Origin: Sphingopyxis panaciterrulae
GTDB taxonomy: Bacteria; Pseudomonadota; Alphaproteobacteria; Sphingomonadales; Sphingomonadaceae
Length of the DNA: 64,000 nucleotides
Assembly: GCF_014199295.1 (NCBI RefSeq)
Contig: NZ_JACIJH010000001.1
Location: 496,001 to 560,000 of the forward strand
Direction of reading: 5' to 3'
Shown: positions 12,155-18,352 of the stretch, in pieces
Layout of the letters: each line of letters begins with the position of its first letter
Numbering within the stretch: the first letter of the stretch is position 1
Translations under genes and position numbers: made by a program
The notes under the pieces: model-generated
Databases searched by the model: none
What the model was told of the DNA's origin: nothing
Seen by the model: the letters and a program-made list of their open reading frames with translations, nothing else

Positions 12155-14878
12155 TCAGGACGTCAGCCGCGCTTCGAGCGCCTTGATCCGGTCCTGGACG
12201 AAGCGATCCTGCGTGTCCTTGAGGTGGGGACCGGCCTTGGCGAACAGGCGCCGCGCCTCGGCAGGGTTCCTTTCGCCCAGCGCGATCTCGGCGAACGCCA
12301 GGTCGACCAGCGCGCCATAATGGGGGTCGCCGACGAGCTGCGCGACCTTCGCGGGATCGACCGTCCGAAGCAGCGCCTTGGCCTCGGCATAATGATGCGC
12401 CTGGATCAGGCAATCGGCGAGCGCGGCGTCGATCGCCTGGGCGAGCGCTTCGCCGCGAGTCATCGCAGCGCGTGCAGCGCGGATATTCGCGATGCCCTGA
12501 TCGAGTTTCCCCGCGCGGCATTGCGATATGCCGATGTCGGTGCGCCCCGCGACCGCGGCGAAGGAGGAGGGGCCGTCCTTGGCCGCCGCGGCGCGCCAGA
12601 CGCGCTCACCATCGACCGCCGCATCGGCATAGCGGCCCACGCCGCCCAATGACTGCTGGCGCGCCGCCAGCAGCAGCAGCGTATAGCGATGGTTCGGACC
12701 CAGCCGCTTTTCCATGACCGGCAGCAGCGCGTCGAGGACCGCGATCGCCTCGGGATAGCGTTGCTGCACCATCAGCGCCTGGCCGACATTGAGGCGCAGG
12801 AACAGCGTGTCGGGATGGTCGCGGCCGACGAGCCTCGTCATCTCGGCAACGAGCGGCCGGAACGCCTTTTCGGCCGCCGCGCCGTCGCCGAGGCGGATCA
12901 GTGCGAAGGCGTGGCGCTGGCCGAAATTGACGATCTGGCGCGGCGAGAACAGCTCGGGCTGCGTCCGCGCGGCCTGCCACGCGCGGCCGAAATGATCGCG
13001 CGAGCCAGGGACATCCTCGCCCGCGAGCGCGGCCATGCCCCGCGCCGATTCGAGCCAGACGGTCGTTTCGGGGCTGTCGATGCCTTTCGCGTCGATCGTC
13101 TTCGCGGCGGCGGCGATCATGCCGCGCGCGGTGTCGAGGCTACCCGGCTGGGTCGACAGCGCGAGCGCCGACGCATGCTGCAGCCGGACGTTGACGCCAT
13201 CGGCCGCGCCCGATGCGCCGGCGCGGTCGTAGCTGCGCTCGGCCGCCTCATAATAGCGGAAGGCGTCGGCATAGTCCGAGCGCATGTCGAAGGCGCGCGC
13301 GAGCGTTGCATAGAGATAGCCCGCGATGCGCGGCTGATCCTCGAAGCGCTCCGCGATCGTGCCGCCGGCGCGATTGACCGCGGCGACCAGCGTTTCCTCG
13401 GCGGCGTCGGCGTGGGCGGGGTCGACGCTCGCGAGCACATCCTCGGCGAGGAAGCGGTAGCTCGCCTCCGAAACCTGCTGCGCGGTGCGCGCCTCGTTGC
13501 GCTGCCTGACGGCATAGGCGGCGAAGGCCGAGGTGCCGACGAGCCCGAGGATCAGGCTGGCGGCCGCCGCACGCATCCACGGGCGGCGGGCGGCGCGGCG
13601 CTCATCCTGTCGCTTCTGTTCGGCGAGGAAGGCGGCGTGCTCGGCTTCGCGCGCCGCGGCGAGACGGCGGTCCGCGAGTCGTTCGAGCCGGTCGGCGAGG
13701 TCGCCCGCGCTGTCGAGCCGTTCGCCGGGCGTGCCGGCGGCGGCGCGGCCGATGTCGCCGCGGAGCAGCGGGTCGGTGACCCGGCCCTCCCATCCGGGCG
13801 CGAGAGACGCGGAGAAATCGCCAACGACGAGCTGATAGAGGATCAGCCCGAGCGCATAAATGTCGCTCTTCACCGTCGGCACCGCGTCGCCGACCAGTTC
13901 GGGCGCGCGATAGGCGAGGGTGCCTGAGCGCGGCTCGTCCTTGCCGAGATCGGCGTCGAGCGAGCCGGGGTCGGTGATGTCGAAGCTCGCGAGCAGCGCG
14001 TCGTCGAGCAGCCGGCCGCTGCCGAAATCGACGAGACGGACGACGGCGGTGCCATCGACTTCGTCGATCAGGATATTGGCGGGCTTCAGGTCCTTGTGGA
14101 GGATGCCGACGGCGTGGATGCCCGCGACCGCGCGCGCGATCATCGCCGCGACCGCGAGCCGGTCCTCGATCGGAATCGCCGGCAGGCCGCCCGCTTCCTC
14201 TGCCCATGCAAGGAGGTCGCGCCCGCCCCACGCATATTCGAGGAAGAAGGGCGGCGCGTCGAAATTCCATTCGTGGAGCATCGGCAGCGGCGCCGCCTTG
14301 CCGAGCGCGGCGAAGACGAGCCGCGACAGCGCCGCCTCGCGTTTCAGCGCGCGCAGCCGGTCGGGCGCGTCGGCGAATTTGAAGATGCGCGCCTCGCCGG
14401 TCTTGGTCTGGCGCGCGAGCCAGACATCCTCGCTGCCGCTGTCGCCGAGCGGGCGTTCGAGCTGCCATGCCTTGCGCGCCGGAACGGCGTCCCCCGAGGC
14501 GAAGGCGAAACGCGGCGCGAGCGGCGTGTCGATGCTCGCCACCTCGACCGGCGCGACGAGGCGGTAGCCGACGCGCGAGACGGTGGCGATCACGCTCTGG
14601 CTGTCGGTCGCGGTGCCCAGCGCCTTGCGCAGTTTCGAGATGGCGGTCGCGAGCGAGCCCTCGACCACGACGACGCCGGGCCAGACCGCATCGAACAATT
14701 CCTCCTTGGTCACGACTTCGCCCGCGCGCAGCAGCAGTTCATGGAGCACTTCGAGCGGTTTGCCCTCGACCGCGGCCGGCGCGCCATCGACGCGCAGCGC
14801 CCAGCTCGCTTCATCGAACTCCGCGCTTGCAAAGCGCCACAGGCGCCGTCGCCGCCGCGACGAATGGGTACTCGACAT
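12155..14878 (-). CDS. Winged-helix / Ser-Thr kinase / TPR membrane protein
   Basis: This 907-residue protein combines three modules. Residues about 17-109 form an OmpR/PhoB-type winged helix (GEVVTKEELFDAVWPG, then SLATAISKLRKAL and SRVGYRLV). Residues about 138-397 form a Hanks-type kinase with candidate ATP-lysine 167, catalytic HKDLKPAN (Asp263), metal-binding DFG (Asp284) and APE at 325-327. A single membrane helix at about 435-457 precedes a long helical C-terminus with tetratricopeptide-like repeats. Topology would place DNA binding and kinase in the cytoplasm and the repeats in the periplasm, as in CadC-like one-component sensors. HKD replaces the usual HRD. The ATG at 14878 is chosen over the in-frame TTG at 14887. 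Its target is unknown; the divergent envelope genes at 15008 onward are candidates. Confidence 0.9.
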   Translation of the reverse strand: MSSTHSSRRRRRLWRFASAEFDEASWALRVDGAPAAVEGKPLEVLHELLLRAGEVVTKEELFDAVWPGVVVVEGSLATAISKLRKALGTATDSQSVIATVSRVGYRLVAPVEVASIDTPLAPRFAFASGDAVPARKAWQLERPLGDSGSEDVWLARQTKTGEARIFKFADAPDRLRALKREAALSRLVFAALGKAAPLPMLHEWNFDAPPFFLEYAWGGRDLLAWAEEAGGLPAIPIEDRLAVAAMIARAVAGIHAVGILHKDLKPANILIDEVDGTAVVRLVDFGSGRLLDDALLASFDITDPGSLDADLGKDEPRSGTLAYRAPELVGDAVPTVKSDIYALGLILYQLVVGDFSASLAPGWEGRVTDPLLRGDIGRAAAGTPGERLDSAGDLADRLERLADRRLAAAREAEHAAFLAEQKRQDERRAARRPWMRAAAASLILGLVGTSAFAAYAVRQRNEARTAQQVSEASYRFLAEDVLASVDPAHADAAEETLVAAVNRAGGTIAERFEDQPRIAGYLYATLARAFDMRSDYADAFRYYEAAERSYDRAGASGAADGVNVRLQHASALALSTQPGSLDTARGMIAAAAKTIDAKGIDSPETTVWLESARGMAALAGEDVPGSRDHFGRAWQAARTQPELFSPRQIVNFGQRHAFALIRLGDGAAAEKAFRPLVAEMTRLVGRDHPDTLFLRLNVGQALMVQQRYPEAIAVLDALLPVMEKRLGPNHRYTLLLLAARQQSLGGVGRYADAAVDGERVWRAAAAKDGPSSFAAVAGRTDIGISQCRAGKLDQGIANIRAARAAMTRGEALAQAIDAALADCLIQAHHYAEAKALLRTVDPAKVAQLVGDPHYGALVDLAFAEIALGERNPAEARRLFAKAGPHLKDTQDRFVQDRIKALEARLTS

Positions 14879-15007
14879 GCCCTGCAACCCCCCGGTGAAA
14901 TACGACTTTAGAAATTCTTGAGAATCCTATCAAGACTTTGAGGATGGCCTCGAATTAGCTTTCCACTGTTCAACCGGCCGGGTCCGGTTTTGGGGAGGTA
15001 TTCGACG

Positions 15008-15388
15008 ATGAAACCGCATCTCATTCTTTTGTCGCTGCTGTTCGCGGGGGGCGCCGGCGTGGCGCTGGCCGGATGCGGCCAGTCCGATTTCGCGAGGATG
15101 GTCGAGGCCGAATGCGCGCAGGATGGCGACCCGGGCAAGGATTGCTCGTGCATCGCCTCGCAGCTCGACGACGGGCTGCCCGACCGGGTCAAGGTCGCCT
15201 TTCCGGCGCTGCGCTGGCCGATGAAGCCCGCGCCGCAGGACCGCGAGGCGGTGAACAACCAGCTCTTGCGCGCGGCCGGGGTCGATCCCGCCGACCGCCA
15301 GGCGGTCGAGTCGATCCGGCAGGAATTTAAGGACAGCTATTACCCGCTGCGCAACGCGGTCCGCGCGGCGTGTGGCGGTTCGGTCTGA
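15008..15388 (+). CDS. Small putative lipoprotein
   Basis: The 126-residue product starts MKPHLILLSLLFAGGAGVAL and has a lipobox ending in Cys (ALAGC), so it is probably lipid-anchored. The mature part is short, polar and has paired cysteines (AECAQDGD, KDCSCIASQ). GGGGAGG lies nine bases before the chosen ATG. It is the first of four same-strand envelope genes divergent from the winged-helix kinase. I do not recognise a family; function unknown. Confidence 0.75.
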   Translation: MKPHLILLSLLFAGGAGVALAGCGQSDFARMVEAECAQDGDPGKDCSCIASQLDDGLPDRVKVAFPALRWPMKPAPQDREAVNNQLLRAAGVDPADRQAVESIRQEFKDSYYPLRNAVRAACGGSV

Positions 15389-15402: not shown

Positions 15403-16155
15403 ATGAAAGGCAAGATATTGGGATATAGCGAAGCCGACGGCAGCGGGGCGATTTCCGCCGACGACGGCTCGCGCCACCGCTTCACCCGCGCCGACTGGCG
15501 CGGCGACAAGCCGCCTGCGACCGGCATGGTCGTCGATTTCGAGAGTAGCGAGGGCGCTGCGAAGGAGATTTATCCGGTCGGCGGCGCGGCGCTCGCCGCG
15601 CTCGGCAACATCAACGTTGACCTGTCGGGCCTGTCGGGTTCGGCCGGCGGTGCGCGGGCGACCGAGCTGTTCACCAAGTCGCTCGCGGTGCCGCTCGCGC
15701 TCGTCGTGCTGCTCGCCTGTTTCCTGACCGCGCTGTCGTCGCCGATGAAGGGCGTCAGCCTGATCGGTCTCGGCGACGCGGTGGCCGAACTCGAAGGGGC
15801 GGCGCGTATGGCGAGCATGATGGGCGGCGGCGGCGATTCGGGGCTGGGGGGACTCGGCGCGCTGCTGATCCTGCGCTTTGCCGCGCCGCTCGCCGCGCTG
15901 TGGCTCGTCTGGGCGGCCTGGGCGGGCAAGGCCGAGCGGCTGCCGATGCTGGTCACGGGAGCCGCGACCATCGTCGCGGCGCTGCTCGTCGTCCTGGTCA
16001 GGCAGGCTGTGCTGTCGGCGGTGCCCGACATGGCGCGCGACATGATGGCGAGCCAGATTCACCTGGGGCTGGGCGTCTGGCTGCTGCTGCTTTCCGGCGC
16101 GGGGCTGATCGCGGGCGGGCTCGGCCTGATCCGCAACCCGCTCGCCAGGGGCTGA
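15403..16155 (+). CDS. Membrane protein with cold-shock-like N-terminus
   Basis: This 250-residue protein begins MKGKILGYSEADGSGAISAD, which resembles the start of a cold-shock/OB fold (basic strand, then a GxGxI strand), and continues HRFTRADW. About residue 90 onward it switches to at least four hydrophobic helices (for example SLAVPLALVVLLACFLTA and LGVWLLLLSGAGLIAGGLGL). Such fusions are reported in proteobacteria as cold-shock and membrane (DUF1294-like) proteins, but the membrane part here is not clearly that family. It lies 14 bases after the lipoprotein stop, with GAGGGCGGAA before the ATG. Confidence 0.7.
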   Translation: MKGKILGYSEADGSGAISADDGSRHRFTRADWRGDKPPATGMVVDFESSEGAAKEIYPVGGAALAALGNINVDLSGLSGSAGGARATELFTKSLAVPLALVVLLACFLTALSSPMKGVSLIGLGDAVAELEGAARMASMMGGGGDSGLGGLGALLILRFAAPLAALWLVWAAWAGKAERLPMLVTGAATIVAALLVVLVRQAVLSAVPDMARDMMASQIHLGLGVWLLLLSGAGLIAGGLGLIRNPLARG

Positions 16156-16183: not shown

Positions 16184-16846
16184 ATGAGCGACGACACTCC
16201 ACCCATCCGCAGCATCGAAGAGGTGCATGGCTGCTATCGCACGGGCACGGTTCGCGGCGTCGGCAACTGGTCCGAAACCCGCGTCCACGCATCGAGCAGC
16301 GGCGGCGGAGGCTATCTCCACAACGGCAGCGGCCATGTCTCTGCGCCGACGGTCAGCGTCTCCTCGACGAGCACCGAGGTGCTGCGCTTCTTCATGGAAT
16401 ATGACGATGAGGACGAGGAGGAGGTGACGATCAAGGGCGGCGGTTTCGCGGTGCGCGAGGGGCAGCGGGTGTCGGTGATCCGCGTCAGCTCGCGGCCGAA
16501 CTGGGGCTATAATATCGCCTATTACAACCACAAGACGGGCACGGCCTATGCGCCCGACTATCGCCTTGCGTGGCCGCTCGACAAGAAGCCGTCGCGCAAG
16601 CCGGCGCTGTTCGCCGCGATCCTGATCGCGACGATAGGCAGCTTCGCGCTGAGCTTCCTTGGGCCGGTCATCGCCCTCGGCGTCTTCGTCTGGGGGCTCC
16701 ATGCCTATGGGCAGAAGATGCGCGGATATCGCGAACTGACCGCGGCCGTGCGCCGCAAGGCCGACGACATGCTGGCCGAGGCGAAGGCCGGGCATGCGCG
16801 CTCGCGCGGTCCGGCCGCGATCGAGGAGGTTTCCGTGGGGGGGTGA
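16184..16846 (+). CDS. Uncharacterised membrane protein
   Basis: The 220-residue product has a soluble, beta-rich N-terminal half with a glycine/serine stretch (ASSSGGGGYLHNGSGH) and an acidic run (EYDDEDEEEV). Hydrophobic segments follow near 145-180 (PALFAAILIATIGSFALSFL and PVIALGVFVWGLHAY) and a basic C-terminus. GGCACGAGG precedes the ATG. It is in line with its two upstream neighbours, likely one transcription unit. No family recognised. Confidence 0.7.
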   Translation: MSDDTPPIRSIEEVHGCYRTGTVRGVGNWSETRVHASSSGGGGYLHNGSGHVSAPTVSVSSTSTEVLRFFMEYDDEDEEEVTIKGGGFAVREGQRVSVIRVSSRPNWGYNIAYYNHKTGTAYAPDYRLAWPLDKKPSRKPALFAAILIATIGSFALSFLGPVIALGVFVWGLHAYGQKMRGYRELTAAVRRKADDMLAEAKAGHARSRGPAAIEEVSVGG

Positions 16847-17008
16847 TGGGCGCTGCCATCGCAGCGCTCGTCGCCATGATCGCGATCGGATCCGGGGCCG
16901 CGACCCCCCCGGGTCCGGTCGCGGTCAACCGATCCGCGGCGGGGTCGATACGCACCGCTCGGGTTGAGCGGATTTCTTTGCTTTCATTGCCGGTCGGGAG
17001 GTTCCGCC

Positions 17009-18352
17009 ATGCACAGTCTGTTCGCTTTCCTGTCGCTTGCCGCCTGGTCGGTTCAGGCCGCCGCCGCGCCCGCCGCGGCGCCGGCGAAGGCCTGGCCGCG
17101 CGAGGTTCAGGCGGCCTATGACGACCTGAAGACCGAATGCCGCGCTAGCGGGGGCAAGTTCATCGCCGACCGCGCGGCCTTCGCCACCGAGACCGAACTC
17201 ACCAATGACGGCAAATCCGACTGGGTGCTCGAATATGCCGCGACGCGCTGTTCGAACGCCGGCTATTCGGCGTGGTGCGGCACCGCGGGCTGCATGATCT
17301 CGATCCTCGGGTCGAGTCCCGGGGGCTTGCGCGCGATCTTCGGAGATAATGTGCGCGGATGGAGCGCGGTCGACCTCGGGCGCGGGCGCAAGGGGCTCGA
17401 AATACCCGTCCACGGAACCGTCTGCGGCGGTGCGGGCGCGGAAGCCTGTATCGAGACGCTTGCCTGGAACGGGCGCAAATGGGATCTGGTCAAGCGCCAT
17501 CGCTGGACCGACGCCGATTATGCGGCCGAGCAGCGGAGGCAGGCCGCGGCGGGCGCGGTGGAATTGCCGCCGCAGCACGAGACGCGCTGGCAGTTCGGGG
17601 GCAGCGGTGCCGGCGCGGTTGCGGCGACCACCGGCCACCCCGAATTCGTGGCGCTCGGGCTGCGATGCCAGCCCGGCGGCGGCGTCTATATGACGCTTGT
17701 GCCCAAGCCGGGCCTGTCGCTGCCACCCGCCGGCCGGCCGCTGCTCGTCAACTTCACCGGCAGCGAGGGCGGCTATGACGCGACGCAGACGCTGGTGCAG
17801 GAGCCGGGCAAGAGCGATTTCAGCGGCCCGATCGACCCCGGCGTCGAAGGGCTGCTGATCGGCGCCGACACCGGGCTTGACCCGATCGCGAGCGCCAGCG
17901 GCGGCGACGAGTGGCAGGAACTGAGCTATCTGTCGCTCGCCGGATCGACCGCGGCGATCCGTTCGCTTCGCCAGCAATGCGACGGCGCCGCAGGGGCGGC
18001 GTCGAGCGCGCAGGCGGCGGGCCGGAAGCCGGTCGCGCCGCTCGGCATCCTTCCCGGCTATTATGTGTCGGAAAGCGAGCCCTGCGCGCAGCCGAGTTTC
18101 GAGGCGCTCTTCTATGACGGCCGGCGGCTGGGGCTGGTGCGCGGCGGCGGCGCGCCGGGCAGCGACGAGGAGAATTTCGTCGGCCCGCTCGGCAAGGTGG
18201 AGCGGTCGGGCAAGGCCCTCTTCCTTCCGGAGTGGGGAATGGAGGTGCGTGTCCTGTCCCCGACGCGCATCCAGCTCACCATCCAGGACTCCGAGGCGCC
18301 GCGGCGCTGGTGCCCGGCCGAGGGGATGCCCGCGAAGTGGCGGGTGCGATAG
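17009..18352 (+). CDS. Secreted protein of unknown function
   Basis: This 447-residue protein has a signal peptide (MHSLFAFLSLAAWSVQAAAA). An N-terminal segment has spaced cysteines and a calcium-like DGKSDW turn (TECRASGG, NDGKSDWVLEYAATRCSN, SAWCGTAGC). Two further beta-rich segments follow, the last around EPCAQPSFEALFYDGRRLGL. GGGAGG precedes the ATG at 17009, which is preferred over an earlier in-frame start at 16964. The many cysteines suggest disulfide bonds in the periplasm. It may end the four-gene envelope cluster that starts at 15008. I do not recognise the family with confidence. Confidence 0.7.
   Translation: MHSLFAFLSLAAWSVQAAAAPAAAPAKAWPREVQAAYDDLKTECRASGGKFIADRAAFATETELTNDGKSDWVLEYAATRCSNAGYSAWCGTAGCMISILGSSPGGLRAIFGDNVRGWSAVDLGRGRKGLEIPVHGTVCGGAGAEACIETLAWNGRKWDLVKRHRWTDADYAAEQRRQAAAGAVELPPQHETRWQFGGSGAGAVAATTGHPEFVALGLRCQPGGGVYMTLVPKPGLSLPPAGRPLLVNFTGSEGGYDATQTLVQEPGKSDFSGPIDPGVEGLLIGADTGLDPIASASGGDEWQELSYLSLAGSTAAIRSLRQQCDGAAGAASSAQAAGRKPVAPLGILPGYYVSESEPCAQPSFEALFYDGRRLGLVRGGGAPGSDEENFVGPLGKVERSGKALFLPEWGMEVRVLSPTRIQLTIQDSEAPRRWCPAEGMPAKWRVR

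Follow-up and report, generated by a model that had tools for sequence, protein, structure and literature searches.

The question raised by this locus is whether a membrane-bound kinase can act as its own transcription factor and, if so, on which DNA and on which genes. Bacterial Ser/Thr kinases usually reach DNA indirectly, through distinct substrate proteins whose identification is difficult. In the 64,000-nucleotide stretch of the Sphingopyxis panaciterrulae genome that was analysed (referred to as the window), a likely output domain is present on the same chain as the kinase, and an operator, a promoter geometry and part of a regulon are predicted to the base (Table 1). Sensing, phosphorylation and DNA binding therefore become testable in one protein and one short DNA fragment.

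A total of 57 loci of this family were compared. Three of them (L097, L120 and L123) have no usable frame and were left out of the analysis of upstream regions, which covers 54 regions, 52 of them distinct (L095 repeats L057, and L096 repeats L058). The residue-conservation rows, also 54, leave out L019, L020 and L120, and the tree is likewise without L020.

Table 1. Positions of the kinase/winged-helix gene, its domains, the upstream element and the divergent genes in the window
Feature	Position	Strand	Remarks
Kinase/winged-helix gene, 907 aa (winged helix, Hanks kinase, membrane helix, TPR-type solenoid)	12155..14878	-	
OmpR/CadC-type winged-helix DNA-binding domain, residues 10-112	14543..14851	-	Pfam Trans_reg_C, E 1.7e-13
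Hanks-type kinase domain, residues 123-405	13664..14512	-	Catalytic residues present
Single membrane helix, about residues 437-457	13508..13570	-	Hydropathy; Arg-rich stretch before it
C-terminal TPR-type helical solenoid, residues 497-906	12161..13390	-	Predicted periplasmic
Predicted operator, CTTTAGA aatt CTTGAGA atcc TATCAAG	14906..14934	+	Three 7-bp half-sites, 11-bp period; faces divergent operon
-10-like TAGCTT of divergent promoter	14956..14961	+	21 bases past last half-site
First divergent gene, small lipoprotein, predicted target	15008..15388	+	Lipobox; ATG 15008
Predicted target, family c2	15403..16155	+	Cold-shock-fold domain (residues 1-59), then hydrophobic helices
Predicted target, family c3	16184..16846	+	No Pfam match; in 7 loci
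Predicted target, secreted family c1	17006..18352	+	Start uncertain; in 13 loci (single-linkage cluster)

Domain architecture and catalytic residues

The first-pass annotation had read the gene as a membrane protein with a winged helix, a kinase, a membrane helix and a TPR-like tail, and had likened it to one-component regulators of the CadC kind with the kinase on the cytoplasmic side. This domain order was confirmed by domain search and structure prediction, and the CadC-like layout is supported. For the N-terminus, the domain search agrees with the PDB match to CadC (5ju7, E 8.6e-9 by sequence search), which is the nearest solved relative of the winged helix by sequence, and with the structure model, which shows the strands, helices and hairpin of this fold. 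The membrane helix is present by hydropathy in the 907-aa protein, in 121 relatives and in 54 locus rows; the structure model has low confidence at this helix. No receiver domain is found among the Pfam matches of the protein, and its best PDB match by sequence is 9EED, the structure of PknS.

Mean pairwise identity among the relatives is 80% in the winged helix, 71% in the kinase and 52% in the tail, which is thus the most variable part, as expected of a sensor. Exactly two cysteines lie C-terminal of the membrane helix in 120 of 121 relatives, and C787 and C823 are present in all 121. Among 52 distinct locus sequences of the wider family, both cysteines occur in 23, neither in 28 and C823 alone in one. 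This co-occurrence suggests a disulfide and hence a periplasmic tail.

The kinase residues K167, E181, H261, D263, K265, N268, D284-F-G, P326, E327 and D339 are found in 54/54 locus rows, the HRD motif reading HKD. Conservation of this set (K, E, HxD, N, DFG, PE and Asp 339) would be unexpected for a pseudokinase and makes it very unlikely that the protein is a CadC/ToxR-like regulator whose kinase domain serves as a non-catalytic coupling or dimerisation module, a reading favoured by the degenerate glycine loop (GxGxxG; G145 in 42/54 and G148 in 21/54 rows) and by the CadC/ToxR layout, which works without any enzyme. We infer instead that the kinase is active and that the protein is controlled by phosphorylation. 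In the activation segment, T302 is conserved in 51/54 and T320 in 53/54 rows. Winged-helix Ser/Thr residues conserved in close relatives were followed into the 54 rows of the wider family, and none of those followed is invariant there (T57 in 46, S75 in 23, T99 in 47). This singles out no phosphosite in cis, and the switching of DNA binding by self-phosphorylation that the first-pass annotation raised stays a putative mechanism.

The upstream element and the divergent promoter

The half-sites of the predicted operator occupy positions 14906-14912, 14917-14923 and 14928-14934 of the window. The available upstream regions of close relatives contain CTTnAnR nnnn TCTnAAG nnTT TCTAAAG or a variant of it. 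Without any motif being assumed, 7-mer triples with a period of 11 score at least 11 of 14 in 31 of the 54 upstream regions, whereas the same test at periods 8-10 and 12-16 returns 0-9 regions, and 60 dinucleotide shuffles give a mean of 3.0 and a maximum of 6 at period 11. No element is found in five of the 54 regions (L108, L121, L024, L018 and L019) and it is weak in four (L103, L107, L111 and L122); L018 is cut by a contig end, and L024 and L019 contain visible variant elements that the rule missed. With up to two mismatches, TCTNAAGNNNNTCTNAAG has one match in the window (0 mismatches), with 0.98 expected by chance. This single match is at chance level, so the case for the element rests on its recurrence.

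The sequence of the half-site follows that of the recognition helix. EGSLxTA is mostly paired with TCTnAAG, DASLSVA with TCCAAAG, NVLANA with TCTAACG, and KVLPNA mostly with GGTAACG or GATAACG. This match is consistent, but it comprises few independent events, since two changes of half-site class suffice to explain the tree.

The distance from the element to a -10-like TAG is also recurrent. Among 23 class-A loci, 10 have a TAG 20-21 bases past the last half-site; among 13 distinct class-D loci, 9 have it at 31 bases (11 when all 15 rows are counted). The background is about 0.3 per position, and the seven class-C loci show no TAG pattern after the last half-site. In many class-D loci the extra 11 bases are filled by a fourth repeat, CGTGCC. 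OmpR/PhoB-type activators usually bind half-sites arranged head to tail at 11 bp, the last of which ends about 20 bases upstream of the -10. On this spacing, it is judged unlikely that the same wiring serves to repress the divergent operon, with release on phosphorylation, even though the -35 region, which repressors also occupy, would be overlapped by the last half-site. Activation of the divergent operon is therefore the reading that we infer.

In the window, 27 bp separate the element from the start codon of the kinase gene. This would fit autoregulation, with the winged helix mainly holding the protein at its own locus while the kinase acts on other proteins in trans, and Hanks kinases usually have several substrates. 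In the KVLPNA group, however, the gap between the element and the kinase gene is wider (117-221 bases to the winged-helix codons), and it is the spacing to the divergent -10-like TAG that is set. These positions, together with the extra copies of the element before unlinked exported-protein genes described below, render a mainly autoregulatory role improbable, and control of the divergent genes remains the preferred reading.

The idea that the divergent gene is always exported was rejected. Among 45 loci (the five without an element and the four with a weak one being left out), the divergent gene passes a crude export rule (lipobox, signal hydropathy or c2 start) in 28, and in 17 it fails or is lacking. 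Twelve further loci (L104, L110, L062, L056, L027, L055, L053, L063, L117, L113, L114 and L115) look exported or membrane-bound by eye, L114 and L115 by the likeness of their starts to L113, and the resulting total of about 40/45 is a judgement rather than a test. In L101, L112 and L116 the export reading is unfitting or unclear, and L102 and L017 have no divergent open reading frame of 90 aa. The divergent envelope cluster had been named as a natural target in the first-pass annotation, a proposal that gains support from the recurrence of the divergent arrangement, from the set distance to the TAG and from the extra element copies before similar genes.

Family c2 appears to be a membrane-anchored cold-shock-like protein, for which 49 relatives were found. 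The divergent gene of L117 (450-1277), a locus from family f217, has a c2-like layout, with a short soluble start and four hydrophobic segments, and a different sequence.

Distribution of the gene and copies of the element

The search for related proteins gave 1170 matches at E ≤ 0.001, among which kinase-only relatives may occur beyond the 120 listed. The survey of the architecture that had been suggested at the outset found kinase and Trans_reg_C domains in 120/120 of these best relatives, at 50-93% identity. Sphingopyxis, Sphingomonas, Caulobacter, Sphingosinicella and Erythrobacter are the named sources among the relatives listed, and the closest of the matches listed is from Sphingopyxis sp. 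GW247-27LB (93% identical). At E ≤ 1e-60, with few candidates scored per genome and all counts therefore being lower bounds (the own genome counted wherever drawn), the winged-helix kinase was detected in at least 9/298 genomes of the same family, at least 1/385 of the same class (this one being the own genome), at least 6/398 of the phylum and at least 3/149 of f63, another family of the same class. It was also detected in at least 33/197 genomes of f217, with up to four matches per genome; this family is presumably gammaproteobacterial, from its place in another class of the phylum. In the tree, a Brevundimonas copy adjoins that of the window, an f63 copy sits among Sphingopyxis copies, and an f217 copy (L094) falls inside the group that holds the protein of the window. 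On these positions, the patchy gene has probably been transferred horizontally. Two metagenome-assembled genomes (L019 and L025) contain an interrupted kinase frame, perhaps a sequencing error.

Two patterns of the element were searched in whole genomes; a genome counts as lacking the kinase if none of its few scored candidates matches at E 1e-60. As each pattern derives from kinase promoters in these or related genomes, only sites away from such promoters are new. The close-group pattern, with up to three mismatches, has 14 sites in 20 genomes, all of them in kinase-bearing genomes (9/12, versus 0/8 without the kinase). It was not found in the kinase-bearing genomes G175, G240 and G250, and the reversed pattern gave one match (G1057). 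Eight of the 14 sites are at kinase promoters. Five of the six others face, respectively, the lipoprotein of the own genome, c1, a secreted protein, a lipoprotein and an ATG opening MQGRILGLEP (c2-like), and the sixth (G293 C1:2665929) has no clear target. A c1 relative in G293 has its own copy of the element. A TAG at 21 bases is present in two of the six (L134 and L137). The lipoprotein site of the own genome lies at C2:545778, and the unlinked lipoprotein gene of this genome (L135 421-1440) has a full copy of the element upstream. The first pattern was written with the second site of the own genome already in view, and that site is not an independent match.

The f217 pattern, with up to two mismatches, was found in 8/8 kinase-bearing versus 0/8 other genomes, and its reversed form gave one match (G1169). 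Seven distinct sites lie away from kinase promoters, one of them directly downstream of a kinase gene. CGTGCC is located exactly 4 bases past the searched triple in 7/7 of these sites, a TAG at 31-32 in six and at 36 in one, and by eye each is followed by a gene with a signal-like or membrane segment. Since neither CGTGCC nor the TAG was part of the search pattern, this is the strongest independent evidence for a real regulon promoter element. The predicted DNA target and regulon are well supported by these sequence comparisons.

Proposed mechanism and related systems

It is considered fairly probable that the protein is a transmembrane signalling pathway in one polypeptide, a receptor kinase and transcription factor that controls the divergent envelope genes. 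The TPR-type solenoid, predicted to be periplasmic, would sense the state of the envelope or a partner, and the signal would pass the membrane via one long helix (401-482) into the Ser/Thr kinase domain. The kinase would control the CadC/OmpR-type winged helix at its own N-terminus, with phosphorylation as the putative switch. Tandem winged helices would bind the three half-sites (four in one distant group) 11 bp apart, occupy the -35 region of the divergent promoter or its immediate flank, and recruit RNA polymerase. The envelope-protein operon, and probably unlinked copies of such genes, would thereby be activated, and in the close group the promoter of the kinase gene itself would probably be affected too. 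A broader claim is made more tentatively, with somewhat less than even confidence: that transmembrane Ser/Thr receptor kinases serving as their own transcription factors form a distinct signalling class, in which DNA occupancy of the winged helix would be set by phosphorylation within the molecule or dimer, and which would have moved between classes of Pseudomonadota with its operator and envelope targets, and would control a dispersed regulon of exported proteins in one distant family.

The own genome contains three Pkinase matches. The other two kinases, of 819 aa (L059 3178-6200) and 802 aa (L060 6028-9042), have tails with weak TPR-type matches, and each is followed by a convergent gene for a Sig-70_X6 ECF sigma factor (TIGR02999 at 173.7 and 161.8 bits, cut-off 126). 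Genome-wide, only these two sigma genes are above the cut-off, and the weak match nearest to the winged-helix kinase is 46 kb away. The names Sig-70_X6 (TIGR02999) and ECF43 presumably overlap. QTTA, seen in one sigma protein and not in the printed stretch of the other, is the ECF43 consensus motif given in the PknS report (PMC13147305). Apparently the same 573-aa surface-protein-like gene is located near a sigma-linked kinase of the own genome (L059 6437-8158) and near the winged-helix kinase in L022 (2317-4038) and L049 (14638-16359).

These two kinase-sigma pairs resemble PknS and EcfK of Xanthomonas citri, an ECF43-linked system. PknS shares the layout of the 907-aa protein: its Hanks kinase is cytoplasmic and joined by a single membrane helix to a TPR region at the C-terminus, with an extra segment N-terminal to the kinase and transcription as its output. 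Its periplasmic TPR region is reported to modulate autophosphorylation, and the full-length protein without a cue gave no phosphothreonine signal, whereas versions without the periplasmic part gave one (PMC13147305). By analogy with PknS, the tail of the 907-aa protein may restrain its kinase. PknS acts via the separate sigma factor EcfK, whereas the 907-aa protein has a fused winged helix and no nearby Sig-70_X6 gene above the cut-off.

The N-terminal OmpR-type winged helix, single membrane helix and C-terminal domain, here predicted to be periplasmic, are shared with CadC/ToxR, and the cysteine pair recalls the CadC disulfide (PMC3096576). Unlike CadC/ToxR, the 907-aa protein has a complete kinase (123-405) between the winged helix and the membrane helix. 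The winged-helix fold is also that of OmpR/PhoB response regulators, which use 11-bp head-to-tail half-sites, but the receiver domain has no Pfam match here. A winged helix and a kinase are likewise combined in RIO2 kinases, which differ in being soluble proteins of the RIO family that act in ribosome maturation, without a membrane helix or TPR. No account of a winged-helix/kinase fusion was found in the literature covered, with subscription papers mostly outside its scope; the fusion is already visible in annotation, one member (P0118) being named "DNA-binding winged helix-turn-helix (wHTH) protein/serine/threonine protein kinase".

With a kinase between its winged helix and membrane helix, the 907-aa protein is not a plain member of CadC/ToxR; lacking a sigma partner, it is not a plain ECF43-linked kinase either. 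By analogy, it may work like a PknS-type receptor kinase that has a fused DNA-binding domain in place of the separate ECF sigma factor. Such an evolutionary swap is suggested within one genome, in which two receptor kinases have sigma-factor neighbours and the third has an attached DNA-binding domain.
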